Shown here piece after piece: positions 11,601 to 25,712 of a DNA stretch of 64,000 nt. Source of the stretch: Oscillospiraceae bacterium (lineage in GTDB: Bacteria; Bacillota; Clostridia; Oscillospirales; Oscillospiraceae); NCBI GenBank assembly GCA_017395935.1, contig JAFQNL010000004.1:48073-112072 (forward strand). Direction: 5' to 3'. The notes below the pieces were generated by a model. The model was not told where the DNA came from. It saw only the letters and a program-made list of their open reading frames with translations, and searched no databases. The position numbers were made by a program, and so were the translations under genes. Every line of letters starts with the position of its first letter. Position 1 is the first letter of the stretch.

Positions 11601-11941
11601 TCAAGGATGTGACCTATTACTACACCGTCCGGGCTTATAAGGGCAGCTATATGTCCTACTATGACAAGACCGGTATCGGCTGCAAGGCTCAGGTCACTCA
11701 GGTGGCTGACTCTGACACCGTCAAGTACACCGTCACCTCCGCTACCCCCTACTATGAGCTCATCAACGGTCAGGTCCTTGGCGCCGGCCAGAAGGGCACT
11801 CTGGCCAAGGGCGATACCATCCGGGTCATTCCCAGCATGGACGTGGTGGAAGACGGCTACTCCGAGGGCGTCACCTACACCCCCTTCCTCCAGGACGGCA
11901 AGATCTATTACGTCCTGACCGCCCGGATCAAGAAGGTCTGA
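8627..11941 (+). CDS. Secreted multidomain CAP / Ig-like / FN3 / SH3 protein
   Basis: A 1104-aa exported protein, probably surface- or matrix-associated. Residues 1-28 form a signal peptide (basic start, hydrophobic core, AGFA). An acidic Glu-rich linker follows. Then come a CAP/SCP-like domain (~105-235), a bacterial Ig-like BIG2 domain (~263-338), FN3 repeats 1 and 2 (~343-520), an SH3-like domain (~525-590), FN3 3 and 4 (~591-775), a second SH3-like domain (~778-844), FN3 5 and 6 (~845-1020), and a third SH3-like end (~1030-1104). FN3 units repeat the phrases YxVWRK, GSW and YTYTxRA. No LPXTG sorting motif or transmembrane anchor is seen. The CAP histidine/glutamate set looks incomplete, so it may be binding rather than catalytic. 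ATG 8627 follows AGGAGGG. Function inferred as adhesion or cell-wall binding. Confidence 0.85.
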   Translation: MNNRWNRFLSLMLALCTVLTMIPAGFALETPEELPQQPEAEAEEVIAEEEAAPVEQEPAAETPVMEETAVSEPIEGVMAAAVIELDKTAGTDYPSLQLTGLGSFTLAEELISKLNAKRAGNGASSLIRVDEAMSAALDMAAEHVLGTNAVRPNGESWLTIAGDHELAVNEGSEPLCAFLTADEADAEAALETLLSAYPTLADSTSYNNVGAACFQRDNGLVYWAVLAFNGPGYESCAAKGELSYSYNVPFTADSLDAALVVEAEDTDLSLGESFTLNAALVTDQDSIVLDASLLTFATSDEKVVSVDETGKVTAAGDGQADVTVTLKAEESITTSISYTSTLNLTSPVLKSAANQTAGIKITWEAVPGATSYRIYRSTTAGTWKDRLATVAAPGTSYVDKTATVGTTYYYTVRSVHNNGGTDILGTYDKDGLAIIRLATPTVKSATASNNGITVAWNKVNGAANYSVWRKVGTGSWTKIATTSSTTYLDTNVKSGTKYTYTIRAHKGSYMSDYNRTGKTATATKTVSLTNYIAWTDVKYRTGAGTSYAAGGTFKAGATVTVYSGWSTTANNTTWYKVLVNGKVYYVMAQYLLATPTLKTPANRSGGVQVGWNKVANATGYTVWRMPEGGSWKKIATITSGNTTSYIDKKEELTSGETYSYTVRATRNSKQSSYNKTGKSLVYVETPELISAKADTSSITFTWKAAEGVDGYTVWRKVNNGSWQKVQTLTDPTVTSYKDLDVTSLTEYAYTVRAQLGKNQSHYDTKGVADMIVLAGSFENAVVTSATKYRTGAGTSYSSDGSLKAGAKVSVLSEDLKSTTTSWCRILITNTKGSFLRYIPKSAILTSPALKKVSIVQSGIKVEWPAISGATQYEVWRKANDGSWKQMAVVTGTNYTDTSVSTGTKYTYTLRATVNGVRSSYNSTGTSIIYLATPSLTSAIACKVGSKYGIQVRWGAVDGADGYVIYRRAAGATSWARLGTTANLNFFDSSSMVKDVTYYYTVRAYKGSYMSYYDKTGIGCKAQVTQVADSDTVKYTVTSATPYYELINGQVLGAGQKGTLAKGDTIRVIPSMDVVEDGYSEGVTYTPFLQDGKIYYVLTARIKKV

Positions 11942-12154: not shown

Positions 12155-13774
12155 TCAGTTCAGGAAGGTCCGGACAACCTCCCGCAGCTGCTCGGGCAGC
12201 TCTTCCAGTTGGGTAATCTCCCTCTCCCCCACCCGGGCCACGAAGCCGGTATCGGTGAGCCGGAAACCCTGATTGGCGCTGTCGGCCATGGTCGCCTCCG
12301 AAGAGAAGAGGGTGAATTTATCCCGGTAGGGGGTATAGCCGAAGGGGCAGAAGCAGGCGCAGTTTCCGCACTCGTTGCACAGGTCGTCCACATGGACGGC
12401 CTTTTTCAGCTCCGTCAGCGGGAGATTGGCCCGGTTGGGACAGACATCCACGCAGTTCCGGCACTGGTAGCAGGCCAGATCCGTCAGCGGACGCAGCACC
12501 GTTCTGCCCGGCTTCTCCTTCTGATAGTAGCTGTCCTCGGCCACCTGTTCAATCAGCCGGTCCAGAAGACGGCAGTCCACCTGTTCGGGAATGGTCTCGG
12601 GGGCCAGCCCGGCCAGCCGGGTCAGGTTCTTGTATCCCCCCTGCTTCAGCAGCAGGGTGGCCAGCGTGACGGGGGCAATACCGGCCGAGAGCACCTGAGC
12701 CACGTTATGGGCGTCGATACCGCCGGAGAAGGAGATGGGCAGCGCTCCGTCAAAGGCGTCGCTGAGCAGCTTTGCCGTCCGGATCGACAGCAGGAAGAGG
12801 GGCTTGCCCGACAGATACATGGTCTGGCCGGGGAGCTCCCGGTTCCGGATGGCCACCGGGAAGGTATTGGTCAGCTTGACGCCCATGGTGAGGCCCAGCG
12901 ACCGGGCCAGCTGGGTCATCTCGGTCAGCATTTTTACCGCATAGTCCAGCTTCAGGTCGTGCTCAAAGCCCTCGGGGCCAAAGCTGAGATAGTCATAGCC
13001 CTTTTCATCCAGTACCTTCCGGGCCGTCTCATAGCCCACCAGCGTGGGATTGCACTTGACGAAGGTATGCAGGCCCTTTTCCCGGAGCATATGGGTGATC
13101 ATGGCCTGAATCTGGTCCACCGGGCAGCCGTGGAGGGTGGACAGGGTGACGGTATTACAGAGGGCGGAGGGGATGGCGTCCAGATAGGCCTCGTCCACCA
13201 CCCGGAAGAGATCCAGATGCTTCTTCAGGATGGCCAGAGACTCTGCCCAGACCGGGCTCCGGGAGGCATCCTTCATGGTCTCAATAAAGCCATCAATCTT
13301 GGGCGACTGGAGGCCGGGCAGGTCATAGCCCACCGACATATGGAACTGGAAGCCCTCCGGGCTGCCCAGATCGAACTCCTTTGCCAGCACCTTGATCAGC
13401 AGCCAGGCCTTGATATACTCCTCGGCAGCCTGCGCCACCGTAAGCTCGGTCGACCACTCCACGTTATAAGCCTCGCCCTGAACATAGATACAGGGCTTAT
13501 CCACCGGCAGATCCTCGCCGTCGATGATCTGGACCGTCTTCAGCTCGAAGATCCGGGCGCCGGCGGCATAGGCGGCCACCAGATTATTGGCCAGCTGGGT
13601 ATGGGGGCCGGCAGCCGGGCCCACCGGGTTTTCCATTACGCCGCCGCAGAAGGCCAGAGGCGCGGACTTCGGGCGGACTGCCGGCACATAGAAGACCGAC
13701 TGCTTCTCTCTCATCTCCTTCATTACCGTCAGCAGCAAAGGCTCAAAGGCCATTGGGATCATACGATCACTCAT
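12155..13774 (-). CDS. ygfK: Short YgfK-like reductase (DHOD-like barrel plus 2x4Fe-4S)
   Basis: A 539-aa homologue of the putative selenate reductase subunit YgfK, a member of the gene set linked to anaerobic urate breakdown. Residues ~1-420 match the N-terminal flavin-binding barrel (NPVGPAAGPHTQLA, FELKTVQI, TLSTLHGCP, ISFSGG). Residues ~440-510 match its C-terminal ferredoxin module (CYQCRNCVDVCPNRAN and CNECGNCACFCP). The middle GltD-like FAD/NAD(P)H oxidoreductase part of full-length YgfK (about 1,000 aa) is absent, with no frameshift, so this is a compact form. Electrons must come from elsewhere, such as ferredoxin or a separate flavoprotein. It is last in the ssnA-hydA-xdhC-ygfK unit, 25 bp after xdhC. 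ATG 13774 follows AAAGGAG. Confidence 0.85.
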   Translation of the reverse strand: MSDRMIPMAFEPLLLTVMKEMREKQSVFYVPAVRPKSAPLAFCGGVMENPVGPAAGPHTQLANNLVAAYAAGARIFELKTVQIIDGEDLPVDKPCIYVQGEAYNVEWSTELTVAQAAEEYIKAWLLIKVLAKEFDLGSPEGFQFHMSVGYDLPGLQSPKIDGFIETMKDASRSPVWAESLAILKKHLDLFRVVDEAYLDAIPSALCNTVTLSTLHGCPVDQIQAMITHMLREKGLHTFVKCNPTLVGYETARKVLDEKGYDYLSFGPEGFEHDLKLDYAVKMLTEMTQLARSLGLTMGVKLTNTFPVAIRNRELPGQTMYLSGKPLFLLSIRTAKLLSDAFDGALPISFSGGIDAHNVAQVLSAGIAPVTLATLLLKQGGYKNLTRLAGLAPETIPEQVDCRLLDRLIEQVAEDSYYQKEKPGRTVLRPLTDLACYQCRNCVDVCPNRANLPLTELKKAVHVDDLCNECGNCACFCPFGYTPYRDKFTLFSSEATMADSANQGFRLTDTGFVARVGEREITQLEELPEQLREVVRTFLN

Positions 13775-13799
13775 ATCTCTCGACTCCTTTCCGGTCAGA

Positions 13800-14837
13800 T
13801 CAGTCCTGTTTCTCCTCCGGGGCAGCAGCCCCTTCCATCCGTTCCAGCAGCAGCTTGACGCTGCCGCTGGTCACTGTCGTCTGTTCATCCAGCCGGAGCG
13901 TTACCTCCAGCCGCTCCTGCCGGCAGTGCTCGCCGGTCTCCAGCATCGTCCGGCAGAGCGCGGCCGCCTCGGCCTCCATGGCTCCGCCGCCGATGGTGCC
14001 CAGCTGGCCTTCCCGGGTGACCAGGAACTTGGTTCCCTCTCCCCGGGGCACCGAGCCTGAGACGGCGACAATGGTAGCCAGTATCGCCTCCCCTTCTCCG
14101 CCCCGGGCCAGCAACTGCTCCGGATAGCCGCCGGACTGGCCGCTCTGGCGCCGGACAGAGACCATCTGGGCCAGAATGGCAAGGGCGATCTCCTCCGGCG
14201 TCTGGGCGCCGATCTCCAGTCCGATGGGGGCATGAACCCGTTGGATCACCGCCGGGGAAAAGCCCTTCTGGGCCATACGCTTTTTTACCATCTCCGCCCG
14301 GCTGTGGCTGCCCAGCATACCGGCATAGGCCCACTGCTTGGGCAGGATCTGCTCCAGACACTTCTGGTCAAAGAGATGCTCCCGGGTAAGAATGGCATAG
14401 TAGACCTGATTTCCGCCGGGATGCTGGGCCAGCAGCTGGGTAAAGTCCCCGGTGAGTACCCGATGGGCGCCGGCCTCCCGGGCCCGGTCGGCAAACTCCT
14501 CCCGATCCTCCAGCACGGTGACGAAAAAGCCCAGCCGGTCTGCCATGGGGATCAGCGCCTGAGCCACATGGCCGCCGCCGCAGAGAACCAGCTCCGGCTG
14601 GCCCTCCAGCAGCTCCAGATAGACCTTCTCCCCTCCCAGCGAGAGCGAGCAGCTCTCCGGGATCATAGCCAGCAGCGGCAGCCAGCCGGCCAGGGGGCTG
14701 TCCTTGGGCTGGCAGCTGATGACCACCATGGCCTCGGAAAAGATAATCCGGTGGCCCAGATGAGGTCCCTCGGTGATCACGGCGGTACGGATCCCCTGAC
14801 GCTGGGGGAGCAGGCTTAATAGTTTCAGATAGTTCAT
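13800..14837 (-). CDS. xdhC: XdhC/CoxI-family molybdo-hydroxylase maturation protein, permuted order
   Basis: A 345-aa protein of the family that loads sulfurated molybdenum cofactor into xanthine dehydrogenase-type enzymes. Residues ~75-225 are the Rossmann XdhC_C domain (LVLCGGGHVAQAL, YAGMLGSHSRAEM). Residues ~245-320 are the XdhC_CoxI domain (ATIVAVSGSVPRGEGTKFLV, GTIGGGAMEAE). In classical XdhC the CoxI part comes first, so the order here is reversed. It lies between hydA and ygfK with short gaps. Its presence implies a molybdenum hydroxylase in this organism, but none is encoded in the window. The start at 14837 (MNYLKLL) follows AAAGGAAGAAGC. Confidence 0.85.
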   Translation of the reverse strand: MNYLKLLSLLPQRQGIRTAVITEGPHLGHRIIFSEAMVVISCQPKDSPLAGWLPLLAMIPESCSLSLGGEKVYLELLEGQPELVLCGGGHVAQALIPMADRLGFFVTVLEDREEFADRAREAGAHRVLTGDFTQLLAQHPGGNQVYYAILTREHLFDQKCLEQILPKQWAYAGMLGSHSRAEMVKKRMAQKGFSPAVIQRVHAPIGLEIGAQTPEEIALAILAQMVSVRRQSGQSGGYPEQLLARGGEGEAILATIVAVSGSVPRGEGTKFLVTREGQLGTIGGGAMEAEAAALCRTMLETGEHCRQERLEVTLRLDEQTTVTSGSVKLLLERMEGAAAPEEKQD

Positions 14838-14872
14838 GGATGCTTCTTCCTTTGTCCTGTTTCAGTTTCCTC

Positions 14873-16243
14873 TCAGAGCTGGCAGCTGCTCCGGGGAAGA
14901 TATTGGCCCAGTCCGGCAGCAATCAGCCGGCCGCCGCTGACCACATGGTGGCCCCGGAGGAAAACCTCCTCCACTCTGCCCCGGATCTTCCAGCCCTCGT
15001 AGGGGGTGTAGCCGGCGGCGTTATGGCACTGGTCGGAGCGGATTGTCCCCTCCCAGTTGGGGTCAAAGAGGACAAGATCGCCGTCGCTGCCCACCTGCAG
15101 GCAGCCCTTCCGGGGATAGAGGCCGAAGAGCCGGGCCGGCTGGGCGGCCAGCACCCGGACCAGCCGGGAGGGCTCCGCCCCGTCCTCGGCCACCCAGGAA
15201 TGGTACATGATCCGGACCCGGTCCTCTACGCCGGGCATACCGCCGGGAATGGCGGTAAAGTCTCCCTGTCCCGCCGCCTTCTGCGCGTCGGTAAAGGAGC
15301 AGTGGTCGGTGGAGATCAGGTCAATCTCCCCCTCGTCCAGCGCCTCCCAGAGGGCGGCCAGATCCTCTCCGGTCCGCAGGGGCGGGGAGCAGATATAGCG
15401 CCGCCCCTCCTTCTCGTCGGCGCCCTCAAAGACCCGGTCGGTCAGATGGAGATACTGAGGGCAGGTCTCCACATAGACCTGCTGGCCCTGCTCCCGGGCC
15501 TGTCGGATTACCTCCAGACCCTTTTTGCTGGACAGATGGACCACAATCACAGGTACATCAGCCACCCGGGCCAGCGCCAGCAGCCGGTTCACCGCCTCGG
15601 CCTCGGCCTCGTCGGGCCGGGAGAGGGGATGGCCCTCAGGGCCGGTAATGCCCCGGGCTTTTACCTGCCGCTGCATGACGTCGATCATGCCGCTGTTTTC
15701 ACAGTGGACCCCGACGATACCGCCCAGAGGCTTGAGGGCCAGCAGCACCTCCAGCAGCTCCCTGTCGGTCACCTGATTGGCGTAGGTCATGTAGAGCTTA
15801 AAGGAGGTGACGCCCCGTCGGAAGATCCGGGGCAGATCCGCTTCGGCCTGCCGGTCCCACTGGGAGATGGCCAGATGGAATCCGTAGTCGCAGCTCGCCT
15901 TGCCCTCCGCCTTCCGATGCCAGTTGTCCAGTCCCTGCTCCAGCGTCTCTCCCTTTTCCTGGGTGGCAAAGTCCACGATGGTGGTGGTGCCGCCCAGCAG
16001 GGCGGCGGCGGTGCCGGAGGCAAAGTCGTCGGCGGTCACCGTTGCGCAGACGGGCAGATCCATATGGGTATGGCCGTCGATAAAGCCGGGAAAGACCAGC
16101 TTTCCCTCCGCCTCAATCACCCGGGCCTCCGGGCAGGAGAGCTCCGGGCCGATCGCGGCAATCTTCTCCCCCTCCAGCAGCAGGTCTGCCCGGAGGGATT
16201 CATATTCCGTTACAAGGGTTCCGCCCCGAATCAGGGTCTTCAT
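14873..16243 (-). CDS. hydA: Dihydropyrimidinase / hydantoinase-type cyclic amidohydrolase
   Basis: A 456-aa zinc amidohydrolase that opens cyclic ureides or imides. Seen: metal ligands GHTHMD (H58, H60), the carbamylated bridging lysine K149 in TSFKLYMTY, HCENSG and VVHLSS histidines, and the catalytic Asp in STDHCSF. Length and motifs fit dihydropyrimidinase/HydA. In urate-type clusters HydA is expected to open a ring of a reduced purine product; the exact substrate is inferred. It is 12 bp after ssnA and 35 bp before xdhC, so the four genes form an operon. ATG 16243 is preceded by AAGGAGGAAGG. Confidence 0.92.
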   Translation of the reverse strand: MKTLIRGGTLVTEYESLRADLLLEGEKIAAIGPELSCPEARVIEAEGKLVFPGFIDGHTHMDLPVCATVTADDFASGTAAALLGGTTTIVDFATQEKGETLEQGLDNWHRKAEGKASCDYGFHLAISQWDRQAEADLPRIFRRGVTSFKLYMTYANQVTDRELLEVLLALKPLGGIVGVHCENSGMIDVMQRQVKARGITGPEGHPLSRPDEAEAEAVNRLLALARVADVPVIVVHLSSKKGLEVIRQAREQGQQVYVETCPQYLHLTDRVFEGADEKEGRRYICSPPLRTGEDLAALWEALDEGEIDLISTDHCSFTDAQKAAGQGDFTAIPGGMPGVEDRVRIMYHSWVAEDGAEPSRLVRVLAAQPARLFGLYPRKGCLQVGSDGDLVLFDPNWEGTIRSDQCHNAAGYTPYEGWKIRGRVEEVFLRGHHVVSGGRLIAAGLGQYLPRSSCQL

Positions 16244-16255
16244 TGCCCTTCCTCC

Positions 16256-17593
16256 TTATCCGTTGATACTCCGGGCCAGCTCTGCCGCCCCCTGACGGAC
16301 CCGGGCGGTGACCTCCTCCTCGTCGCAGAAGGTGAGGACCCGGTCCTTCATGAGCACCTTGCCGGCGCAGACCGTATGAATGACGCTCCGGCCCATCATG
16401 CCAAAGAGGATATGGCTGTTGGCGTTGGAGCCGTCCATGGGGGTATTGGGGATATAGTCTGTCACAATCACGTCGGCCCCGTAGCCCGGCTTCAGCGCGC
16501 CCAGAGGGGTCTTGAAATAGCGGCCGGCGATTCTGGCGTTTCCGGTAAAGAGCATCTCGGGCACCTCGCTCCAGGCGGCGTTGGGGTCCTGAAGATGGTG
16601 CTTATGGAGCAGGTTGGCCATCTTATAGCTCTCGGTCATATCGTGGGTATAGCCGTCGGTGCCAAGGCCCACCAGTACCCCCTTATGGCACAGGGCCATG
16701 GTGGGAGGACAGCCGCAGGCGTTGCCCATATTGGACTCGGGATTATGGACTACCATGGTATCGGTGGCCTTGAGCAGGTCCATCTCCTCCTCGTCAATAT
16801 AGATACAGTGGGCGGCAAGGGTCTGGGGACCCAGAATACCCAGATCGTTGAGCCGGTGGACCAGCCGCTTGCCGTAGGTCTTTTGGCAGTGTTCCAGATC
16901 GTAGGCCCCTTCGGCCACATGGATATGGTAGCCGGCCCCCTCGGGCAGGTGCTCGGCAGCCAGCGCCATGGTCTGGTCAGAGATGGTAAAGGAGGCGTGC
17001 ATACCCATCATGCCGGCGGCCATATCGCCCCCCTCCCGCTGGGCGTAGCGGATATACCGCTCGTTTTCCAGAACGGCCTGCTTTGCCTTCTCCGCCCCGT
17101 CCCGGTCGGAGATCTCATAGCAGAGGCAGCGGCGAAGGCCCACCGTCCTGCCCGCCTCCTCAATGGCAAAGAGGCTGTCGGGAACCTGGAAGAAGCTGGC
17201 ATGATGGTCAAAGATGGTAGTGACGCCAAACTTGACGCAGTCCATCATGGTGGTCAGGGCGGAGAGATGGGTCTGCTCCAGCGTCAGATGCCGGTCAATG
17301 TTCCACCACATTCCGTCCAGAATGTCCAAAAATCCCTGCGGATGATAGCCCCGGATGGAGAGGCCCCGGGCCATGGCCGAGTAGATATGCTCGTGGGCGT
17401 TGATCAGACCGGGCATAATCACGCCGCCCCGGGCATCGAGCACATCCGCCTGAGGATATTTCTTCCTCAGCTCCTCCCAGCGACCCACCTGAACGATGAG
17501 CCCTCCTTCTACAGCGACGCCGCCTCCTTCCAGAAAGGGGCAGTCCGCGTCCCGGGTCAGTACCCGTCCGCTTCCGATCAGCAGCATAGTCAT
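16256..17593 (-). CDS. ssnA: SsnA-type aminohydrolase
   Basis: A 445-aa amidohydrolase of the chlorohydrolase/guanine deaminase group, matching SsnA of the E. coli ygf/yge purine region. Metal ligands are AHEH (H67, H69), HVAE, AHCIYI and the Asp in LGTDGYTHD. It probably removes an amino group or hydrolyses a C-N bond in a purine-derived ring (inferred from family and cluster). It is the first gene of a four-gene minus-strand operon, expressed from the promoter at 17631-17659 and divergent from the PAS regulator. ATG 17593 lies behind AGGGA; the ATG two codons later is an alternative. Confidence 0.9.
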   Translation of the reverse strand: MTMLLIGSGRVLTRDADCPFLEGGGVAVEGGLIVQVGRWEELRKKYPQADVLDARGGVIMPGLINAHEHIYSAMARGLSIRGYHPQGFLDILDGMWWNIDRHLTLEQTHLSALTTMMDCVKFGVTTIFDHHASFFQVPDSLFAIEEAGRTVGLRRCLCYEISDRDGAEKAKQAVLENERYIRYAQREGGDMAAGMMGMHASFTISDQTMALAAEHLPEGAGYHIHVAEGAYDLEHCQKTYGKRLVHRLNDLGILGPQTLAAHCIYIDEEEMDLLKATDTMVVHNPESNMGNACGCPPTMALCHKGVLVGLGTDGYTHDMTESYKMANLLHKHHLQDPNAAWSEVPEMLFTGNARIAGRYFKTPLGALKPGYGADVIVTDYIPNTPMDGSNANSHILFGMMGRSVIHTVCAGKVLMKDRVLTFCDEEEVTARVRQGAAELARSING

Positions 17594-17630
17594 TCCCTCC
17601 TTATCTGAATAATGAAAACTACTTTTTTAT

Positions 17631-17659
17631 ATTATACCATCTTTAGTTGTCCCTTTCAA
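17631..17659 (-). promoter_or_regulatory. Promoter of ssnA operon
   Basis: Minus strand TTGAAA (17654-17659), 17-bp spacer, perfect TATAAT (17631-17636). Divergent from the regulator promoter at 17683. Confidence 0.85.
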
Positions 17660-17666
17660 CCTTTCC

Positions 17667-17681
17667 TGAGAACGGTTCTCA
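17667..17681. promoter_or_regulatory. 15-bp palindrome, candidate operator between divergent promoters
   Basis: TGAGAACGGTTCTCA is a perfect palindrome (7-bp arms, one central base) lying 7 bp from the ssnA -35 and 1 bp from the regulator -35. A protein bound here could affect both promoters. The PAS-HTH protein at 17764 is the obvious candidate, but this is inference. Confidence 0.6.
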
Positions 17682-17682
17682 C

Positions 17683-17711
17683 TTGTCTTACAGGGTTTTA
17701 TCTGCTATCAT
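17683..17711 (+). promoter_or_regulatory. Promoter of PAS-HTH regulator
   Basis: TTGTCT (17683-17688), 17-bp spacer, TATCAT (17706-17711), 53 bp before ATG 17764. Confidence 0.75.
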
Positions 17712-17763
17712 AGAAGCAGAACAATCGCTCCCCGCTTCACCGCTCCGGAAAGGATGTGACTCT

Positions 17764-18399
17764 ATGACAGAAGCGCTGGCCCTGCTCAAGCAGATGGCCC
17801 ACGGCATTGCCGTCCAGTACGGCTCGAATACCGAAGTGGTCATTCACGACCTGAGCGACCGGGAGGAAGACCCGGTTGTGGCCTATATTGAAAACGGCCA
17901 CGTCACCCACCGCTCTGCCGGAGACGGACCCTCCCCGGTGGTCATGGCTGCCCGGAACAAGACCCGGGACCAGCTGCCTGATCATCTGGGCTTTACCACC
18001 CGGACGGCAGACGGCAAGATACTCAAGTCCAGCACCATCTACCTCTGGGGCGAGGACGGTCAGGTGGACTATATTCTGTCCATCAACAGCGACATTACCG
18101 TCCTCATGGCGGCGGAAAACGCCATCCACACCCTGACCTCCTCCGGCCAGGCGGCAAACCCGATTCCTGACAAGGCCCCCACCAACGTCAATCAGCTTCT
18201 GGAGGATCTGATTGCCCAGTCAGTGGCTCTGGTGGGAAAGCCGGTGCCCCTGATGACCAAGGAGGACAAGGTGAAGGCCATCCGGTTCCTCAACCACTCC
18301 GGCGCGCTGCTCATTACCAAGTCGGGCGCCAAGATCAGCCAGTTCTTCGGTATCTCCAAGTACACCCTCTACAGCTATCTGGAGGAGGGCGGGGAGTAA
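17764..18399 (+). CDS. YheO-like PAS/HTH transcriptional regulator
   Basis: A 211-aa DNA-binding protein. Residues ~8-120 are a YheO-like PAS domain (SNTEVVIHDLSD, DYILSINSDITVL). Residues ~145-208 are a helix-turn-helix of the HTH_22 kind (NHSGALLITKSGAKISQFFGISKYTLYSYL). Family members often sense small metabolites and control nearby catabolic genes. The start at 17764 is preferred because AAAGGATG lies upstream and the promoter ends at 17711. It sits between the divergent ssnA operon and the convergent PLP genes, so it probably regulates the purine island and perhaps itself (inferred). Confidence 0.88.
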   Translation: MTEALALLKQMAHGIAVQYGSNTEVVIHDLSDREEDPVVAYIENGHVTHRSAGDGPSPVVMAARNKTRDQLPDHLGFTTRTADGKILKSSTIYLWGEDGQVDYILSINSDITVLMAAENAIHTLTSSGQAANPIPDKAPTNVNQLLEDLIAQSVALVGKPVPLMTKEDKVKAIRFLNHSGALLITKSGAKISQFFGISKYTLYSYLEEGGE

Positions 18400-18432
18400 G
18401 GCTCTCCGCCGGCAGTCCGGATTTATATCACA

Positions 18433-18478
18433 AAGGAGGCTTCGACCGGGCGTCGAAACCTCCTTCTTCTTTTTTCTT
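18433..18478 (+). terminator. Terminator after the PAS-HTH regulator
   Basis: Hairpin AAGGAGGCTTCGAC / GTCGAAACCTCCTT followed by a T-rich run. It separates the regulator from the convergent PLP genes and could also act on the minus strand. Confidence 0.75.
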
Positions 18479-18500
18479 CTCTTTGCCCTCGGCGGGCCCC

Positions 18501-19733
18501 TTACAGCTCATCCATGACCGCCAGCAGCTGGCCCATGTCCGGGTCTATGGCCACAGGCTCGCCGGCGGCTTTGATGGCGTTGGGGGTATCTTTCAGCCCG
18601 TTTCCGGTCACGATACTGACCACGGAGGCGTTCCGGTCGATCAGGCCCAGCTCCACCGCCTTTTTCACGCCGGCGGTACCTGCCACGCCGGCAGGCTCAC
18701 CAAAGACGCCGCAGGTCCGGCCCAGCAGCCGGGCGGCAGCCAGAATCTCCTCGTCAGACACGTCTACCACCACGCCTCCCGACTCCAGAATGGCGTTGAG
18801 GGCCTTCTCCGCGTTCCGGGGCACGCCTACGGCGATGGAGTCGGCCAGTGTATTCTCCTCCATGGGCTGCCAGTCCGTTCCCTCCCGGATGGCCCGGTTC
18901 AGGGGACAGCAGCCCTCGGCCTGTACGCTGATCAGCCGGGGGAGCCGGTCGATCATGCCGGTGGCGTAGAGGTCCTTGAAGCCCTTCCAGACACCGGCGA
19001 TGGTACAGCCGTCGCCCACCGAGAGGGCCACATAGTCGGTCATCTTCCAGCCCAGCTGCTCGGCAATCTCCAGCGCCACCGTCTTTTTTCCCTCCATGAG
19101 GTAGGGATTGATGGCAGCGTTCCGGTTGTACCAGCCGTAGGTCTCTATGGCCTGCTGGCTGAGCCGGAAGGTGTCCTCATAGCTGCTCTTGACACTGATC
19201 ACATGGGCGCCGAAGATCATCAGCTGGGAGACCTTCCCCTTGGGCGCCCGGGAGGGGACGAAGATATAGGTGGGGAAGCCGGCGGCGGCGGCATTGCCGG
19301 CCAGCGAGGAGGCGGCGTTGCCCGTAGAGGAGCAGGCGATGATTTCCGCTCCCGCCTCCTCCGCCTTGACCACGGCCATGGCCGAGGCCCGGTCCTTCAG
19401 GCTGGCGGTGGGATTCACTCCGTCGTCCTTGATATACAGCTCCCGCAGGCCCAGCGCGTTGGCCAGACCCTCCGCCCGGTAGAAGGGGGACCAGCCCACC
19501 CGAAGCCGGGGCCGGCTGCCCTTGCCCAGTACCGGCAGATACTCCATATAGCGCCACATGGACTGCTCCTGCCGGGCGGCCATGGTCTCATGGCTCACCT
19601 CTTTGGCAATGGCGGCGTAGTCGTAGCGGATATCCAGCAGACCGCCGCAGTGAGGGCAGGTCGTAATGTCGGGCAGCGCCTCCCAGAGCTTGCCGCAGCG
19701 GATACACTGGGCGCCCAATACATGCTTCATCAT
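18501..19733 (-). CDS. Threonine synthase-like PLP enzyme in the purine island
   Basis: A 410-aa fold-type II PLP enzyme. An N-terminal zinc ribbon (CIRCGKLW, CPHCGGLLD; residues ~9-33) precedes the PLP lysine motif TASLKDRASA and the phosphate/Asn loop SSTGNAASSLAGNA, as in threonine synthase. Its location, 30 bp after another PLP enzyme and away from homoserine genes, argues for a role in purine-derived diamino acid breakdown rather than threonine biosynthesis (inference). It could still be a genuine ThrC. Start 19733 (ATGATG) follows AGAAGGAGG. Confidence 0.85.
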   Translation of the reverse strand: MMKHVLGAQCIRCGKLWEALPDITTCPHCGGLLDIRYDYAAIAKEVSHETMAARQEQSMWRYMEYLPVLGKGSRPRLRVGWSPFYRAEGLANALGLRELYIKDDGVNPTASLKDRASAMAVVKAEEAGAEIIACSSTGNAASSLAGNAAAAGFPTYIFVPSRAPKGKVSQLMIFGAHVISVKSSYEDTFRLSQQAIETYGWYNRNAAINPYLMEGKKTVALEIAEQLGWKMTDYVALSVGDGCTIAGVWKGFKDLYATGMIDRLPRLISVQAEGCCPLNRAIREGTDWQPMEENTLADSIAVGVPRNAEKALNAILESGGVVVDVSDEEILAAARLLGRTCGVFGEPAGVAGTAGVKKAVELGLIDRNASVVSIVTGNGLKDTPNAIKAAGEPVAIDPDMGQLLAVMDEL

Positions 19734-19763
19734 GGCCGGTGGCCTCCTTCTTCCCGTCTTGGC

Positions 19764-21239
19764 TTACAGATTCTCCAGCAGACCGGTCCGCCGGTTGAAC
19801 TCGTTGATCAGCTCATCCAGCTCCTCGGCCTGAGCGTGGACGGCATCCCAGGTGCCTGCCTCGTCGTACCAGAGGGCGTCCAGCTCCTGGGCCGTCTTGC
19901 CCTGCTGCTCGACCCAGGTATAGTACTTCAGGTTATGGACCCGCTTCCGGTCCTGATAGGTCAGCTCGGTCATATGGTCGGTCTTGAGACCCAGCATATG
20001 GAGGTTATGGTCCAGAATGGCCTCGGTGTAGTTATAGGGGCCATGGTTCCGGTCCAGCTCCTGAATCCGGCTGGCATACATACTGGCCGAGTCGGTAAGG
20101 ACGGTGCCTACCACGTCGTGCTCGGTGAACTCGTAATACTTGGCCATCTTGATACAGCAGAGGACGTTGGCGATACCGCTGATACCCAGCCAGGTCAGCT
20201 TCTCCAGCAGCGGCTCCTCCAGACCCAGCTCCTCCCGGAGATACTTCTGGCCGTCGGGGGTGTTGAAGAGCCGGAGCAGACGCTGGGAGTCCTCGTCGTC
20301 AATGGCAATGGCCATATCCGTGTTCTTCACGTTATGGATCCACGGGATATGCTTATCTCCGATGCCCTCGATCCGGTGGCCGCCGAAGCCGTTGTTCAGG
20401 ATGGTGGGGCACTGGAGCGCTTCGCCCACGGCCAGCCGGAGCCGGGGATAGCGTTCCTTGAGCAGGTCGCCGGTGGACATGGTTCCGGCAGAGCCCGAGG
20501 TAAAGCAGGCGCCGGCAAACCGGTCGCCGGGCCGCTTGATCGCCTCAAAGAGGTCGGCCATGGCGTAGCCGGTCACGTTGTAGTGCCAGAGGGGATTGCC
20601 CATCTCCTCAAACTGGTTGAAGATCATATAGCCGGGATCGGCCTTGAGCTCGTTGGTCTTGTCGAAGATCTCCTTCACGTTGGACTCGCAGCCGGGGGTG
20701 GCGATGACCTCGGCGCCGATGGAGTGGAGCCAGTCAAACCGCTCCTGGCTCATCTCTGCCGGCAGGATGGCCACGCCCTGGGCGCCCAGCAGCTTGGAGT
20801 TGAAGGCGCCGCCCCGGCAGTAGTTGCCGGTGGAGGGCCAGACCGCCTTGTGCCGGGAGACGTCGAACTGGCCGGTGACCAGCCGAGGGGCCAGACAGCC
20901 GAAGGAGGCGCCCACCTTATGGCATCCGGTGGGGAACCACTTGCCCACCATAGCAATAATCCGGCAGGGAACGCCGGTCAGGCTGGAGGGCAGCTCCACA
21001 TAGTTGGGCACCGGCTGGAAGAGGCCGCCGGACTCCTTGGCCTCGTTCTTCCAGGTAATCCGGAAGAGGTTGAGGGGATTGACCTCCCACAGACCTATCC
21101 CCTTCAGCTTCTCCTGAATGGGTTGGGGGATGGTCTCCGGATGGCGCATCTGGGCGATGGTAGGGATAATAATACCGCTTTCCTTTGCCGTCTGGATATT
21201 GCGAAGCAGGCCTGCTTCCTTTCTGGTCAGATCGATCAT
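19764..21239 (-). CDS. Fold-type II PLP-dependent lyase of purine island, ~490 aa
   Basis: A 491-aa PLP enzyme related to the cysteine synthase/threonine deaminase superfamily. The PLP lysine is probably in PTGCHKVGASF (~115-125), the cofactor-binding Asn loop in STGNYCRGGAF, and the phosphate-binding region in FTSGSAGTMSTGD. It is longer than, and in sequence distinct from, diaminopropionate ammonia-lyase YgeX (~400 aa), which holds this place in the E. coli set. It probably acts on an amino acid intermediate, releasing ammonia. It is first in a two-gene minus-strand operon divergent from ygeY. ATG 21239 is preceded by AGAGAGG. Confidence 0.8.
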   Translation of the reverse strand: MIDLTRKEAGLLRNIQTAKESGIIIPTIAQMRHPETIPQPIQEKLKGIGLWEVNPLNLFRITWKNEAKESGGLFQPVPNYVELPSSLTGVPCRIIAMVGKWFPTGCHKVGASFGCLAPRLVTGQFDVSRHKAVWPSTGNYCRGGAFNSKLLGAQGVAILPAEMSQERFDWLHSIGAEVIATPGCESNVKEIFDKTNELKADPGYMIFNQFEEMGNPLWHYNVTGYAMADLFEAIKRPGDRFAGACFTSGSAGTMSTGDLLKERYPRLRLAVGEALQCPTILNNGFGGHRIEGIGDKHIPWIHNVKNTDMAIAIDDEDSQRLLRLFNTPDGQKYLREELGLEEPLLEKLTWLGISGIANVLCCIKMAKYYEFTEHDVVGTVLTDSASMYASRIQELDRNHGPYNYTEAILDHNLHMLGLKTDHMTELTYQDRKRVHNLKYYTWVEQQGKTAQELDALWYDEAGTWDAVHAQAEELDELINEFNRRTGLLENL

Positions 21240-21295
21240 AATGATAACCTCTCTTCTGGCATATACTGCGGCCTGAGGGCCGGTCTCTTGTGTAT

Positions 21296-21324
21296 ACTAT
21301 AGCATCGTGTCAATTAAATTGCAA
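21296..21324 (-). promoter_or_regulatory. Promoter of the PLP-enzyme operon
   Basis: Minus strand TTGCAA (21319-21324), 17-bp spacer, TATAGT (21296-21301), 57 bp before ATG 21239. Confidence 0.65.
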
Positions 21325-21626
21325 TCTGTTATATAAATCTATATTACCAAAGCTAAAAATTTGTTTGGTGCCAGTCTAATTTTTGATTTTGATGTTTTTT
21401 CTATCCATTCTTCCGTTTTTGCAACATTTCAGCCTCTTGCAGGTTTACATAATCAAATTCACGGGCCAAAAATTCTGTCAGGGAGCCGGAATCTTTTTGT
21501 AATTCGCCCTTGCTTTTTCCAATGCGTATGCTATGATATTTTTAGAAAACACACTTCCGGAAGCGTCTGTCCCCAGCTCATCCGGAGGTCTTTGTCCCAA
21601 CACTATATGCACGGGAGGAACTGATT
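21303..21626. other. AT-rich divergent intergenic region
   Basis: A 324-bp gap between the divergent PLP operon and ygeY, clearly richer in A and T than its flanks. It holds the two divergent promoters and no open frame I would accept. I did not find a copy of the 15-bp palindrome of 17667-17681 here. Confidence 0.6.
21510..21537 (+). promoter_or_regulatory. Promoter of ygeY-ygeW
   Basis: TTGCTT (21510-21515), 16-bp spacer, TATGAT (21532-21537), ~90 bp upstream of ATG 21627. Confidence 0.55.
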
Positions 21627-22934
21627 ATGGATTCTGAAAAAATCAAGGCGGCCGCTCAGGGCTATGAGCAGGCCATGACCCGCTTTCTGCGGGATCTGAT
21701 CGCCATCCCCAGCGAGAGCTGTCAGGAGGAGGGGGTCATCCGCCGCTGTGCTCAGGAGATGGAAGCGCTGGGCTTTGACAAGGTGGAGATTGATCCCATG
21801 GGCAACTGTCTGGGCTGGATGGGTACCGGCTCGAAGATCATGGCCTTTGACGGCCATATTGATACCGTAGGCATCGGCAACCGGGAAAACTGGGAACATG
21901 ACCCCTATCTGGGCTTTGAGACCGACCAGATTATTTATGGCCGGGGCGGCTCGGATCAGGAGGGCGGCGTGGTGGCTGCCGTATACGGCGCCAAAATCAT
22001 GAAGGATCTCGATCTGATCCCCGAGGACACCGCCATTCTGGTCACCGCCACCGTACAGGAGGAGGACTGCGACGGCCTGTGCTGGCAGTATATCCATGAG
22101 CAGATGGGCATTACCCCCGAGTTTGTGGTCTCCACCGAGCCCACTGACGGCGGTATCTACCGGGGCCACCGGGGCCGGATGGAGATCCGGGTGGACGTCA
22201 GAGGCGTCTCCTGCCACGGCTCTGCCCCCGAGCGGGGAGACAACGCCATCTATAAGGTGGCCGATATTCTTCAGGATGTCCGGGCGCTGAACGAGAACGG
22301 ATGCGGCGCCGAGGACGAGGTAAAGGGTCTGGTCAAGATGCTGGAGCCGGAATACAACAGCCAGTGGGAGGACGCCCGGTTCCTCGGCCGGGGCACCATT
22401 ACCGTCAGCCAGATCTTCTACACCTCCCCCTCCCGCTGCGCCGTGGCCGACAGCTGCTCGGTGTCGCTGGATCGGCGGATGACGGCCGGCGAGACGTGGC
22501 AGAGCTGTCTGCAGGAGATCCGGGATCTCCCGGCCTGCAAGAAGTATGCCGACGACGTGACTGTGTCCATGTATCTCTATGACCGGCCGGCGTGGACGGG
22601 TCTGATCTATCCCACCGACTGCTACTTCCCCACCTGGATCAACGCCGAGAGCGCGCCCCACGTTCAGGCGCTGGCCAACGCGCACAAGGCCCTTTACGGC
22701 GATGAGCGGGTAGGCGACCCCGACGCCATGGAAAAGCGCCGTCGCCCGCTTATTGACAAGTGGACCTTCTCCACCAACGGCGTCTCCATTCAGGGCCGCT
22801 ACGGTATCCCCTGCGTCGGCTTCGGACCCGGCGCCGAGAGTCAGGCCCACGCCCCCAACGAGATCATCTGGAAGTCGGATCTGGTCCGCTGCGCCGCTGT
22901 CTACGCGGCAATGCCCGGTCTGTACAAGAAATAA
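21627..22934 (+). CDS. ygeY: YgeY-family M20 metallohydrolase
   Basis: A 435-aa zinc hydrolase of the M20/ArgE/DapE superfamily, of the selenium-metabolism-linked YgeY type. Metal ligands appear in [19 protein letters not shown] and TVQEEDCDG (the catalytic Glu-Glu), followed by STEPTDG and a C-terminal histidine in ESQAHAPNE. In urate-type clusters it should remove a carbamoyl or acyl group from a linear intermediate (inferred). ATG 21627 follows GGGAGG. ygeW starts 17 bp later, so they are cotranscribed. Confidence 0.92.
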
Positions 22935-22951
22935 GTGAAGGAGTTATCGCT

Positions 22952-24157
22952 ATGGATCAGAAGAAATTTAAAGCGCTGCTGTCCGAGCTGAAAGAGCTGG
23001 ATCTGTCCGGAATGTATAATGACGACTTTTTCCTCACCTGGGAAAAGACCGACGACCAGCTCAAGGCGGTCTGGACGGTAGCCGATCTGCTGCGTACCCT
23101 CCGGGAGGGCAATGTGTCCACCAAGGTGTTCGATTCCGGTCTGGGCATCTCCATCTTCCGGGACAACTCGACCCGGACCCGGTTCTCCTTCGCCTCGGCC
23201 TGCAATCTGCTGGGTCTGGAGGTACAGGATCTGGACGAGGGCAAGAGCCAGATTGCCCACGGCGAGACCGTCCGCGAGACGGCCAATATGATCTCCTTCA
23301 TGGCCGACGTAATCGGTATCCGGGATGATATGTACATTGGCAAGGGCAACGCCTATATGCACGCCGTCTCTCAGGCGGTTCAGGAGGGCAACGCCGCCGG
23401 CGTTCTGGAGCAGCGGCCCACGCTGGTCAACCTTCAGTGCGATATCGACCATCCCACCCAGTGCATGGCCGACATGGCCCATCTGATCCACTACTTCGGC
23501 GGAATTGAAAACCTGAAGGGTAAGAAGGTGGCTATGACCTGGGCCTACTCCCCCTCCTACGGCAAGCCTCTCTCCGTCCCGCAGGGCGTCATCGGCCTGT
23601 TCACCCGGCTGGGTATGGACGTGGTTCTGGCCCATCCCGAGGGATATGAGGTAATGAGCGAGGTGGAAGAGGTGGCCAAGGCCAACGCCCAGGCCTCCGG
23701 TGGCTCCTTCACCAGAACCAATTCCATGGCCGAGGCCTTTGCCGGAGCCGATATCGTCTATCCCAAGAGCTGGGCCCCCTTCGCCGCCATGGAGGAGCGG
23801 ACCGATCTCTACGGCAAGGGAGACTTTGACGGTATCAAGGCGCTGGAGCAGCGGCTGCTGGCCCAGAACGCCCAGCATAAGGACTGGACCTGCACCGAGG
23901 AACTCATGGCCACCACCAAGGATGGCAAGGCCCTCTATCTCCACTGCCTGCCCGCCGATATTACCGGCGTCTCCTGCAAGGAGGGCGAGGTGGAAGCCTC
24001 TGTCTTCGACCGGTATCGGGACGAACTGTACAAGGAGGCCAGCTACAAGCCTTATGTGATCGCCGCTATGATCCTGCTGTCCAAGTTCAAGGATCCCGCC
24101 GCCATTCTGGCCCGGCTGGAAAAGCAGGGCCGCCAGCGGATCATGGATCTGGAGTAA
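22952..24157 (+). CDS. ygeW: YgeW-type knotted carbamoyltransferase
   Basis: A 401-aa member of the aspartate/ornithine carbamoyltransferase superfamily of the YgeW type. Seen: the carbamoyl-phosphate motif FRDNSTRTRFSF, the HPTQCMADMAHL motif, and HCLPADITG. It is longer than OTCase, and the insertions fit the knotted YgeW/UTCase class. The likely direction here is catabolic, producing carbamoyl phosphate from a ureido compound for ArcC (inference). ATG 22952 follows AAGGAG; the frame open upstream of it overlaps ygeY and is not used. Followed by a terminator, then arcC. Confidence 0.93.
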   Translation: MDQKKFKALLSELKELDLSGMYNDDFFLTWEKTDDQLKAVWTVADLLRTLREGNVSTKVFDSGLGISIFRDNSTRTRFSFASACNLLGLEVQDLDEGKSQIAHGETVRETANMISFMADVIGIRDDMYIGKGNAYMHAVSQAVQEGNAAGVLEQRPTLVNLQCDIDHPTQCMADMAHLIHYFGGIENLKGKKVAMTWAYSPSYGKPLSVPQGVIGLFTRLGMDVVLAHPEGYEVMSEVEEVAKANAQASGGSFTRTNSMAEAFAGADIVYPKSWAPFAAMEERTDLYGKGDFDGIKALEQRLLAQNAQHKDWTCTEELMATTKDGKALYLHCLPADITGVSCKEGEVEASVFDRYRDELYKEASYKPYVIAAMILLSKFKDPAAILARLEKQGRQRIMDLE

Positions 24158-24177
24158 GCTTCTGAGCAAGCGAAAAA

Positions 24178-24219
24178 CAGGCAGAGTGCCCCCGCGCCTC
24201 TGCCTGTTGGCTTTTTTGT
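24178..24219 (+). terminator. Terminator between ygeW and arcC
   Basis: Hairpin ACAGGCAGAG / CTCTGCCTGT followed by six T. arcC begins 32 bp later, so part of its expression may depend on read-through or on a promoter I cannot identify. Confidence 0.8.
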
Positions 24220-24250
24220 TCATTTCATGGAAGAGAAAAGAGGAGTTTAT

Positions 24251-25195
24251 ATGGCGCGGAAGCCTCGTATCGTTATCGCTCTGGGCGGCAACGCTCTGGG
24301 CAAGACCCTGCCGGAGCAGATGATCGCCGCCAAGACCACCTCCAAAGCCATTGCCGATCTGGTGGAGGAGGGCTATCAGGTGGTTATCTCCCACGGCAAC
24401 GGACCGCAGGTGGGCATGATTAACAACGCCATGGCCGCCCTGAGCCGGGAAAATCCCAACCAGCCCAACACCCCCCTCTCCGTCTGCGTGGCTATGAGTC
24501 AGGCCTATATCGGCTACGACCTGCAAAACGCGCTCCGGGAGGAGCTGCGCAACCGGAAGATTATGGATCCCAAGGTGGTTACCATGGTCACGCAGATCGA
24601 AGTGGACGCCGACGACCCCGCCTTTGACCACCCCACCAAGCCCATTGGCCACTTTATGACCGAGGAGCAGGCCCGCCACGCCGAACAGGCCTACGGCTAT
24701 GTCATGATGGAGGACGCGGGCCGGGGCTGGCGCCGGGCGGTGGCATCCCCCATGCCCAAACGGATTGTGGAGATGAACGCCATCCGGGCGCTGGTGGAGG
24801 CCGAGCAGATTGTCATCGCCTGCGGCGGCGGCGGAATTCCGGTGACCATGAAGGGCAACCACCTGACCGGTGCCTCGGCGGTCATTGACAAGGACCACTG
24901 CTCTGCCCTGCTGGCCAAGGAGCTGGAGGCGGAATTTCTCATTATCCTCACCGCCGTGGATCAGGTGGCCATCAACTACGGCCGGCCTGACGTCCGCTGG
25001 CTCTCCCGGCTCACCTGTCAGCAGGCCCGGGAGTATATCGCTCAGGGCCACTTCGCCCCCGGCTCCATGCTGCCCAAGGTGGAGGCCGCCGTCTCCTTTG
25101 CCGAGAGCGGCAGCGGCCGCACCGCTCTGATCACCCGGCTGGAACGGGCCCGGGAGGGCATACTGGGCCTGACCGGCACCCGGATCTGCCGCTGA
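24251..25195 (+). CDS. arcC: Carbamate kinase
   Basis: Converts carbamoyl phosphate and ADP to ATP, CO2 and ammonia; this is the energy-yielding last step expected after YgeW. The 314-aa protein shows the amino acid kinase fold: ALGGNALG near the N terminus, VISHGNGPQVG, IACGGGGIPV and VIDKDHCSALLA. Length is normal. ATG 24251 is preferred over an upstream in-frame ATG at 24227 because AGAGGAG sits 7 bp before it. E. coli carries the related yqeA in the same cluster. No arcA or other arginine deiminase gene is nearby, so the substrate probably comes from YgeW. Confidence 0.95.
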   Translation: MARKPRIVIALGGNALGKTLPEQMIAAKTTSKAIADLVEEGYQVVISHGNGPQVGMINNAMAALSRENPNQPNTPLSVCVAMSQAYIGYDLQNALREELRNRKIMDPKVVTMVTQIEVDADDPAFDHPTKPIGHFMTEEQARHAEQAYGYVMMEDAGRGWRRAVASPMPKRIVEMNAIRALVEAEQIVIACGGGGIPVTMKGNHLTGASAVIDKDHCSALLAKELEAEFLIILTAVDQVAINYGRPDVRWLSRLTCQQAREYIAQGHFAPGSMLPKVEAAVSFAESGSGRTALITRLERAREGILGLTGTRICR

Positions 25196-25296: not shown

Positions 25297-25302
25297 CCTT
25301 AG

Positions 25303-25374
25303 AGGCAACACCCGGATTCGAACCGGGGAATCAGGGTTTTGCAGACCCACGCCTTACCACTTGGCTATGTTGCC
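25303..25374 (-). tRNA. tRNA-Cys (GCA)
   Basis: Acceptor GGCAACA/TGTTGCC, anticodon loop CTGCAAA, T-loop GTTCGAA. No CCA encoded. Last of the Val-Asp-Phe-Gly-Cys operon. Confidence 0.95.
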
Positions 25375-25380
25375 ATATGG

Positions 25381-25410
25381 AAAACAGGAGCAAAGCTTTG
25401 CTCCTGTTTT
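25381..25410. repeat. 30-bp perfect palindrome between tRNA-Cys and tRNA-Gly
   Basis: AAAACAGGAGCAAAG and its exact complement follow each other without a loop. It may be a processing hairpin or a partial terminator inside the tRNA operon. Confidence 0.7.
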
Positions 25411-25414
25411 CATT

Positions 25415-25490: not shown

Positions 25491-25516
25491 AAATGCTCCA
25501 CGAATGTGGAGCGTGA

Positions 25517-25694: not shown

Positions 25695-25712
25695 AGATAT
25701 GTTGACAAATAG

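Follow-up and report, generated by a model that had tools for sequence, protein, structure and literature searches.

A probable urate island without YgeX

How might a bacterium that encodes most of the reductive urate pathway dispose of diaminopropionate when YgeX, the enzyme of that last step in Escherichia coli, is not found in its genome? The question is raised by a gene island at 12155-25195 of a 64,000-nucleotide stretch (the window) of contig JAFQNL010000004.1, from an Oscillospiraceae bacterium (assembly GCA_017395935.1). The island includes genes for two pyridoxal-5'-phosphate (PLP) proteins, here called P1 and P2. The best explanation of the locus as a whole, to which we give a probability of about 0.48, is a variant urate island in which P1 and P2 act at the diaminopropionate end. 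We infer the role of P1 and P2 and, by homology to characterised enzymes, the reactions of the other island enzymes.

The reductive urate pathway was reconstituted from E. coli and Clostridioides difficile enzymes by Li et al. 2025 (PMC12507026). In the accessible part of that account XdhD converts urate to 2,8-dioxopurine, YgfK or UacX and then SsnA lead to ureidomethyl-hydantoin, HyuA gives 2,3-diureidopropionate, YgeW (or UacY) and YgeY give diaminopropionate, and YgeX yields pyruvate and ammonia; SsnA is the marker enzyme used. Ten genes were confirmed in the island, split over four transcription units. Unit 1 (minus strand, 17593 to 12155) is SsnA-HyuA-XdhC-YgfK, unit 2 (plus strand) is a PAS_6/HTH_22 regulator alone, unit 3 (minus strand, 21239 to 18501) is the P1-P2 pair, between the regulator and YgeY, and unit 4 (plus strand, 21627-25195) is YgeY-YgeW-carbamate kinase. 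Lengths are in amino acids (aa).

12155..13774, minus strand: short YgfK/UacX-type reductase, 539 aa (TIGR03315, 617 bits)
13800..14837, minus strand: XdhC-family factor that matures molybdenum hydroxylases, 345 aa (over the cut-offs of PF13478 and PF02625)
14873..16243, minus strand: HyuA, D-hydantoinase/dihydropyrimidinase type, 456 aa (TIGR02033, 558.9 bits, cut-off 393)
16256..17593, minus strand: SsnA aminohydrolase, 445 aa (NF005540, 633 bits, cut-off 444; TIGR03314, 563.6 bits, cut-off 455.5)
17764..18399, plus strand: YheO-like PAS and HTH regulator, 211 aa (PF08348, 97 bits; PF13309, 62 bits)
18501..19733, minus strand: P2, threonine-synthase-like PLP protein with an N-terminal four-cysteine motif, 410 aa (TIGR00260, 211 bits)
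19764..21239, minus strand: P1, PLP protein with a distant cysteine-synthase fold, 491 aa (cysK the best NCBIfam match, 82.9 bits)
21627..22934, plus strand: YgeY, M20-family ureido hydrolase, 435 aa (TIGR03526, 614.7 bits, cut-off 321.5)
22952..24157, plus strand: YgeW knotted carbamoyltransferase, 401 aa (TIGR03316, 781 bits, cut-off 500)
24227..25195, plus strand: carbamate kinase (YqeA/ArcC type), 322 aa (TIGR00746, 360.8 bits, cut-off 358)

Families were assigned with the curated cut-offs of NCBIfam and with Pfam cut-offs. SsnA, YgeY, YgeW, HyuA (as dihydropyrimidinase/D-hydantoinase) and the carbamate kinase are over the curated cut-offs, and YgfK is not; the XdhC protein reaches 217.7 bits against NF045664, below the cut-off of 350. 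The regulator frame is open from 17647, with the ATG at 17764 as the likelier start, and for YgeW the ATG at 22952 is likelier. Seven of the ten genes fit the reductive urate pathway as published, also called the 2,8-dioxopurine or "yanthine" route, namely the YgfK/UacX-type reductase, HyuA, SsnA, YgeY, YgeW, the kinase and XdhC. Given this content, the cluster very probably serves the reductive urate pathway.

A preliminary description of the window, made from its letters, had placed ygfK, xdhC, hydA, ssnA, ygeY, ygeW, a carbamate kinase, a regulator and two PLP genes together, rearranged into two minus-strand operons, a regulator and a plus-strand unit, and the family matches bear out both the content and the order. 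The overlap that it named with the urate-linked ygeW/ygeY/ygfK/ssnA/hyuA group also holds, the island being of the same cluster type as that in the accessible part of Li et al. 2025 (PMC12507026). Two genes of the group as named there drop out: neither xdhD nor any other molybdenum hydroxylase was found in the window, and ygeX is not among the PLP genes of the island. The gene named xdhC is present, as a maturation factor and not an Fe-S subunit. Both PLP enzymes were confirmed, with the PALP fold, and what had been missed is that neither is YgeX. The claim that the island could carry a full route from reduced purine to ammonia, CO2 and ATP does not survive, as the molybdenum enzyme lies on another contig, a genome-wide search for YgeX gave no match over the cut-off, and no open frame in the window, to which this search was confined, encodes a permease like E. 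coli XanQ or GhxQ.

Taken by itself, the island is biology already known, because the pathway or the gene set has been described by Li et al. 2025, by Percudani 2025 (PMC12990295), which summarises the reductive pathway together with an independent study, by a 2013 paper that in its accessible part notes the clustering of such genes with 'DHase X1' (PMC4016543) and by the accessible part of a 2008 selenium paper in which the gene set appears (PMC2276186). The part that stands out is the terminal step. Against the YgeX model TIGR01747 (cut-off 274) the best match in the genome, which is 2.07 megabases (Mb) long and 97% complete, is 52.8 bits on another contig, and P2 and P1 reach 23.5 and 15.4 bits. 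The motifs TDGNHG and QDTAW, present in eight YgeX sequences, are absent from twelve P2 sequences aligned with them. With no YgeX match over the cut-off in the genome, we class the island as a variant of the pathway and not as a plain member. An assembly artefact was rejected as the cause: YgeX has no match in the finished genome of Oscillibacter valericigenes Sjm18-20, which has SsnA, P1 and P2, nor in 19 good-quality P1 genomes, the window's included. Oscillibacter ruminantium GH1 likewise has SsnA and P1 and gives no match to YgeX. We found no account of P1 or P2 in urate degradation in the open-licence PMC literature; Liu et al. 2023 (Cell) and 2025 (Nat Microbiol), the principal experimental studies apart from Li et al., may mention them.

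Sequence features of P1 and P2

Against cysK (TIGR01139) P1 stays far under the cut-off of 351, and neither P1 nor any of ten P1 relatives is over the cut-off of any NCBIfam model listed. With a profile built on 53 sequences, cysteine and cystathionine synthases are among the best 60 of 94 matches, the top one over residues 83-330, and about 160 residues lie beyond the part matching solved structures (to residue 330). The PLP lysine K108 is kept in 107/107 relatives (>33% identity and >400 aa). P1 and its 34-46% relatives match the SbnA/CysK fold over the PLP fold, far under the curated cut-offs; SbnA works on diaminopropionate-type C-N bonds. An OrtB-type thiolase, considered as an alternative for P1, was rejected, as the name is absent among the families listed for P1 and the ten relatives (for several of them, the best 25).

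P2 is over the cut-off of the threonine synthase model TIGR00260 (211 bits vs 167) and aligns with the solved threonine synthases 2zsj, 1uim, 6cgq and 2d1f from residue 60 to about 400, with the PLP lysine kept. In the alignment with these four, A207, L212 and D241 of P2 replace S155, R160 and N188 (Thermus thermophilus numbering), and P2 has VGDGC where threonine synthases have VGNAGN. Across 80 P2 sequences (>45% identity and 380 aa) position 207 is A (77) or G (3), and 212 and 241 are L and D in all 80; the PLP lysine K113 and the four cysteines are likewise kept in 80/80. We take S155, R160 and N188 to be the substrate-phosphate site of threonine synthase, for which, as for the active-site residues of YgeX, a print source was sought and none found. 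A profile comparison of P1 with P2 gave a probability of 1.7. Because the PLP lysines are kept and these P2 residues are changed, P1 and P2 both have the look of working PLP enzymes with different substrates.

Distribution and gene neighbourhoods

In 197 genomes of the order, with close P1 relatives counted at at least 69% identity, SsnA is over the cut-off in 13, YgeX in 14 and P1 in 8; P1 occurs in 7/13 SsnA genomes vs 1/184 others. SsnA occurs without YgeX in just two of these genomes, the window's and G071, each of which holds P1 and P2 in the SsnA cluster. The family sample comprised 220 genomes, of which 66 match SsnA (65 over the cut-off); testing covered all 66 and, of the 154 remaining genomes, 12. 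P1 was found in 52/66 SsnA genomes vs 0/12 of those tested without SsnA, and YgeX in 35/66 vs 0/12. The family sample includes 48 SsnA genomes of good quality (47 with SsnA over the cut-off, while that of G420 is in two pieces); of these, 19 have P1 only, 24 have both, 4 have YgeX only and one has neither. The third sample was seeded with P1 and consists of the best 80 of at least 544 relatives among 592 stretches. The 50 genomes searched from it were chosen mostly by locus length after the neighbourhoods were known, so that bias is possible, and are mostly metagenome bins of unstated completeness; 48/50 have SsnA over the cut-off and 16/50 have YgeX. A second ThrC-type gene is present in 16/16 P1 genomes (in 14 on the contig of P1) vs 0/12 genomes without P1. 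Because the three family-sample genomes of the window's genus have none of SsnA, P1 and YgeX, the island would seem to be an accessory trait within that genus.

The position of P1 and P2 also ties them to the pathway genes. YgeX (TIGR01747/TIGR03528) is, like P1 and P2, a fold-type II PLP protein (PF00291) in a slot adjoining YgeY. Of the 80 P1 loci, 52 have YgeY no more than 3 kilobases (kb) from P1, and 57 have P2 no more than 1.5 kb away. P1 and YgeY are less than 3 kb apart in 38/50 genomes; 4 of these have YgeX beside YgeY, 5 have it elsewhere (one with a further YgeX copy at the edge of a contig) and 29 lack it. In the other 12/50 genomes YgeX adjoins YgeY in 6. For this contrast in YgeX beside YgeY Fisher p = 0.007, an optimistic value given that the genomes are related. 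The layout met most often at these loci has kinase-YgeW-YgeY followed in the opposite direction by the PAS regulator, P1 and P2.

Some distant relatives keep similar company. In genome G802, with P1 at 35% and P2 at 51% identity, one row reads HyuA, YgeW, a TetR-type gene, P1, kinase, P2, YgeY, molybdenum hydroxylase genes, SsnA, YgfK, YgfM and XdhD, and YgeX is absent from the 42.3 kb. In G571 are found YgeY, a YgeW relative (34%), kinase, permease, molybdenum hydroxylase genes, SsnA, P2 and P1, and YgeX, HyuA and YgfK are without a match in its 59.7 kb. G536 has P1-kinase-P2-YgeW relative-YgeY-permease, with YgeX and SsnA absent from 43.8 kb. None of these three genomes was searched for YgeX as a whole. 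At the level of the phylum, P1 has matches in 87 of 398 sampled genomes, and 20 loci were read. Among 13 loci with P1 relatives at 34-46% identity, nine have P2, SsnA or molybdenum hydroxylase genes and four (L260, L261, L262, L267) have not. Of the seven with closer relatives, L270 and L272 have P2 and SsnA, L271 has selenium-molybdenum factor genes, and L269, L273, L274 and L275 have no clear partner.

A possible terminal module and its alternatives

In the route that we propose, urate would be converted to 2,8-dioxopurine by a fused selenium-type xanthine-dehydrogenase homologue whose gene lies on another contig and whose maturation the island XdhC would assist. The short YgfK/UacX-type reductase would dearomatise 2,8-dioxopurine, SsnA and HyuA would open both rings to give 2,3-diureidopropionate, and YgeW with carbamate kinase, and YgeY, would take off the two ureido groups to give 2,3-diaminopropionate, one of the two yielding ATP. 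The P1/P2 pair would then perform the last step, that of E. coli YgeX, in the simplest case with two enzymes replacing a single one. It is somewhat short of an even chance, in our estimate, that P1 and P2 take over the diaminopropionate step. At nearly even odds we put the broader suggestion that they form an unrecognised two-enzyme terminal module, Clostridia-wide, that replaces or supplements YgeX, either as a racemase with a stereospecific lyase or with a non-pyruvate end (serine/phosphoserine). Racemase and lyase are known activities of fold-type II PLP enzymes. A racemase and a stereospecific lyase in place of YgeX are proposed because, in the accessible part of Li et al. (PMC12507026), E. 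coli HyuA is D-stereospecific and YgeX is equally active on both diaminopropionate isomers. The pair could stand in for YgeX and yet be useful alongside it.

A number of observations weigh against this proposal. P2 is not in view at 16/80 P1 loci (several of them short), and in the phylum sample it is in view in 9/20 loci and missing in 11/20; eight of the P2-less phylum loci (L260-L262, L267, L269, L273-L275) are also without a clear purine partner. In distant genomes, then, P2 often does not accompany P1, and mechanisms that depend on the two together are weakened by this. YgeX and the pair also occur together, in a single row SsnA-P2-P1-YgeX-YgeV-YgeY-YgeW-kinase-HyuA in G605 and at L113, L168, L171 and L177; L119 has P1 and YgeX without P2. 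In several Flavonifractor-type genomes P1-P2 lies with another hydantoinase and molybdenum hydroxylase or selenium-molybdenum factor genes, away from YgeY, and YgeX is beside YgeY. One of the 19 genomes with P1 only, G411, has a stop within P1, and G273 is the good-quality SsnA genome with neither P1 nor YgeX. The contrast between P1 and YgeX is weak, with Fisher p = 0.38 in the family sample and 0.042 with the order sample added, and these values are optimistic because the genomes are related. At three loci tested with Pfam, a class V aminotransferase (L113, L119), a D-2-hydroxyacid dehydrogenase (L119) and DUF1015 (L119, L168) follow P1 or P1-P2, which suggests a link to serine metabolism.

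L113, 12891-13976: gene after P1 or P1-P2 (Pfam)
L119, 11513-15020: genes after P1 or P1-P2 (Pfam)
L168, 12862-14100: gene after P1 or P1-P2 (Pfam)

These genes favour an explanation in which P1 and P2 divert diaminopropionate, or an aminoacrylate-type intermediate, to another three-carbon product, for example to serine or O-phosphoserine via beta-replacement. Such an aminotransferase, dehydrogenase and DUF1015 set is presumably a clostridial serine-synthesis operon, and no paper supporting DUF1015 as a serine kinase was found in the open-licence PMC literature. Diversion would account for the clusters that carry P1 and P2 plus YgeX, and nine of ten P1 relatives reach 49-70 bits against SbnA, a CysK-fold protein of diaminopropionate synthesis (the tenth 30, P1 itself 28.9; all far below the cut-off of 350). 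The serine-type genes were, however, tested at 3/80 loci, and ORF sizes at other loci prove nothing, because a similar-sized gene at L153 is an FtsH-like AAA protein. For a beta-replacement in which water or phosphate displaces an amino group no precedent was established, and we regard diversion as unlikely. We rate as rather improbable that P1 and P2 belong to a parallel heterocycle pathway (molybdenum hydroxylase, hydantoinase and P1/P2) that sits beside the urate cluster or has been captured by it. Nine loci (G184 (= L127), G173, G139 (= L170), G055, G085, L163, L164, L169 and L173) speak for such a pathway: P1 lies beside a HyuA relative, mostly with XdhA, XdhB, YqeC or YqeB and with no YgeY or YgeW in view, and P2 is present except at L163. 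G687 and G464 have P2, xanthine dehydrogenase (XDH) and P1 in a row with a HyuA relative, and G183 has a separate HyuA-P1-P2-XDH-YgfK row (L079 9656-17885, G183:C90), in which the molybdenum hydroxylase is a fused protein of 990 aa and YgfK is of the short form, on another contig than its SsnA and YgeX; this second cluster is possibly a parallel purine-type pathway. The presence of SsnA in 48/50 P1 genomes, the closeness of YgeY to P1 in 52/80 loci and the place of P1 and P2 in the window, between the regulator and YgeY, all argue against this explanation.

It is very improbable that the main substrate of the cluster is something other than urate, such as another 8-oxopurine or a hydantoin. 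Neither a urate reductase gene nor a XanQ/GhxQ-like permease was found in the window, sequence does not reveal substrate specificity, and the column of E. coli XdhD Glu606 falls in a gapped region of the alignment; yet a matching fused xanthine-dehydrogenase homologue is present in the genome, and SsnA, YgeW, YgeY and HyuA have been placed in the urate route by experiment, according to the accessible part of Li et al. (PMC12507026). Barely credible, finally, is that P1 and P2 are an ordinary cysteine synthase and an ordinary threonine synthase, here by chance. P2 is over the TIGR00260 cut-off, as such a synthase would be, but the genome also has a separate ThrC (G000:C40, 234 bits) and a CysK-like gene (G000:C8), P2 is altered at the presumed phosphate-site residues in 80/80 sequences, P1 scores 82.9 bits against the CysK cut-off of 351, and both proteins track SsnA. 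We rejected this explanation on the second copies, the changed P2 residues and the linkage to SsnA.

Proposed electron supply, urate reduction and uptake

The match of the island YgfK covers positions 1-427 of the 1012 in the TIGR03315 profile, and its 617 bits fall below the cut-off of 835 because the second half of the full-length profile is absent. In the translation the tail of the protein has two Cx2Cx2Cx3C motifs, 2x[4Fe-4S]-like, with Fer4 matches at 434-479 that are all below the Pfam cut-off. Because the protein is without the FAD/NAD(P)H half present in E. coli YgfK, it is probably fed by a ferredoxin-type donor, and a donor of this type has been proposed for C. difficile UacX in the accessible part of Li et al. 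(PMC12507026). Relatives of the short form (536-546 aa) adjoin SsnA or SeXDH, and a long form (981-1000 aa) occurs in other genomes of the family.

Two adjacent molybdenum hydroxylase genes were found in the genome, on contig C6. They encode an enzyme of the fused selenium-dependent type (TIGR03311, 1267 bits) and XdhA, with genes for XdhB, a 2Fe-2S subunit and the selenium-molybdenum factor YqeB next in line. In a FastTree tree of 28 sequences, without support values, the fused enzyme falls among enzymes encoded mostly beside SsnA, YgfK or YgeX, and because of this placement among cluster-borne enzymes it is likely to be the urate reductase of the route. On the side of transport, genes for a Bmp-type substrate-binding protein and an ABC ATPase adjoin the kinase/YgeW/YgeY/P1 cluster of Oscillibacter ruminantium (L118 2027-5125), where purine or nucleoside uptake is possible.

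Comparison with described clusters

The island shares SsnA, HyuA, YgeW, the kinase, YgeY and the N-terminal half of YgfK with the E. coli cluster (xdhD, ygfM, ygfK, ssnA, hyuA, ygeW, yqeA, ygeY, ygeX). It differs in that no YgeX was found in its genome, its YgfK ends before the FAD/NAD(P)H half, and P1 and P2 are added. Its molybdenum enzyme, unlike E. coli XdhD, is of the fused selenium type (TIGR03311) and is encoded elsewhere in the genome, and it has a PAS-HTH regulator where E. coli has YgeV. The C. difficile variant with UacX and UacY, in the accessible part of its description (PMC12507026), resembles the island in a reductase without the FAD domain and a molybdenum enzyme without YgfM, but keeps YgeX, and the island has YgeW and carbamate kinase instead of UacY. 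The short YgfK is likened to UacX by this published description, as a possible orthologue.

Regulation

Relatives of the regulator adjoin YgeY, YgeX or P1 at many loci. By consensus matches, promoter-like sites stand at the heads of three units (17659-17631, minus strand; 17683-17711, plus strand; 21324-21296, minus strand), with 9 sites found vs 3.6 expected, and a consensus-type prediction gives a strong hairpin after YgfK (12089-12064, minus strand). Between the divergent promoter-like sites of the SsnA operon and the regulator lies one further feature.

17667..17681: perfect 7-1-7 inverted repeat

This repeat is the sole match in the window with fewer than three mismatches, and its exact form occurs at 2/285 loci, both copies of the window's own place. 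It may be an operator for the regulator, a candidate that we offer as a lead. When 63 intergenic regions were searched for an operator common to divergent promoters, AT-rich repeats were all that emerged.

Implications

Gut bacterial uricolysis is under development against gout and hyperuricaemia, and gene markers set which species count as uricolytic. If P1 and P2 finish the route in Oscillospiraceae, YgeX would be an unreliable marker there, given that 19/48 good-quality SsnA genomes have P1 without YgeX. The carbon of diaminopropionate might then have a different fate, two widespread PLP families would gain a function, and a survey that scores any neighbourhood PF00291 protein as YgeX would count P1 and P2 as YgeX and miss the module. 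The legend of Figure 3g in the accessible part of Li et al. (PMC12507026) describes such scoring. The finding also bears on the stereochemistry of the ureido intermediates, which Percudani 2025 (PMC12990295) names as an open question, and part of the gut chemistry of uric acid may remain without assigned enzymes.

Flanking regions

A tyrosine-type phage integrase (PF00589, PF14659) at 1225-2607 on the plus strand adjoins five transfer RNA (tRNA) genes at 2690-3221 on the minus strand (Lys, Gln, His, Arg, Gly), an arrangement like that bordering an integrated element. A carbamoyltransferase at 3306-4400 on the minus strand has a weak PyrI-like metal-binding tail (20 bits, below cut-off) and is perhaps a PyrB-PyrI fusion. 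Directly beside the island, at 8552-11941 on the plus strand, lies a frame of 1129 aa with matches to fn3, Big_2, SH3 (below cut-off) and a GH85 C-terminal domain, whose product is probably a large surface or secreted protein. To the right of the island, at 25302-25786 on the minus strand, are five more tRNA genes (Cys, Gly, Phe, Asp, Val). A transfer-messenger RNA called at 25712-26059 on the minus strand is probably false, as it overlaps the tRNA-Val and Hsp33 genes. Further along, at 38609-40309 on the minus strand, a pyridine-nucleotide-disulphide oxidoreductase is fused with a rhodanese domain.

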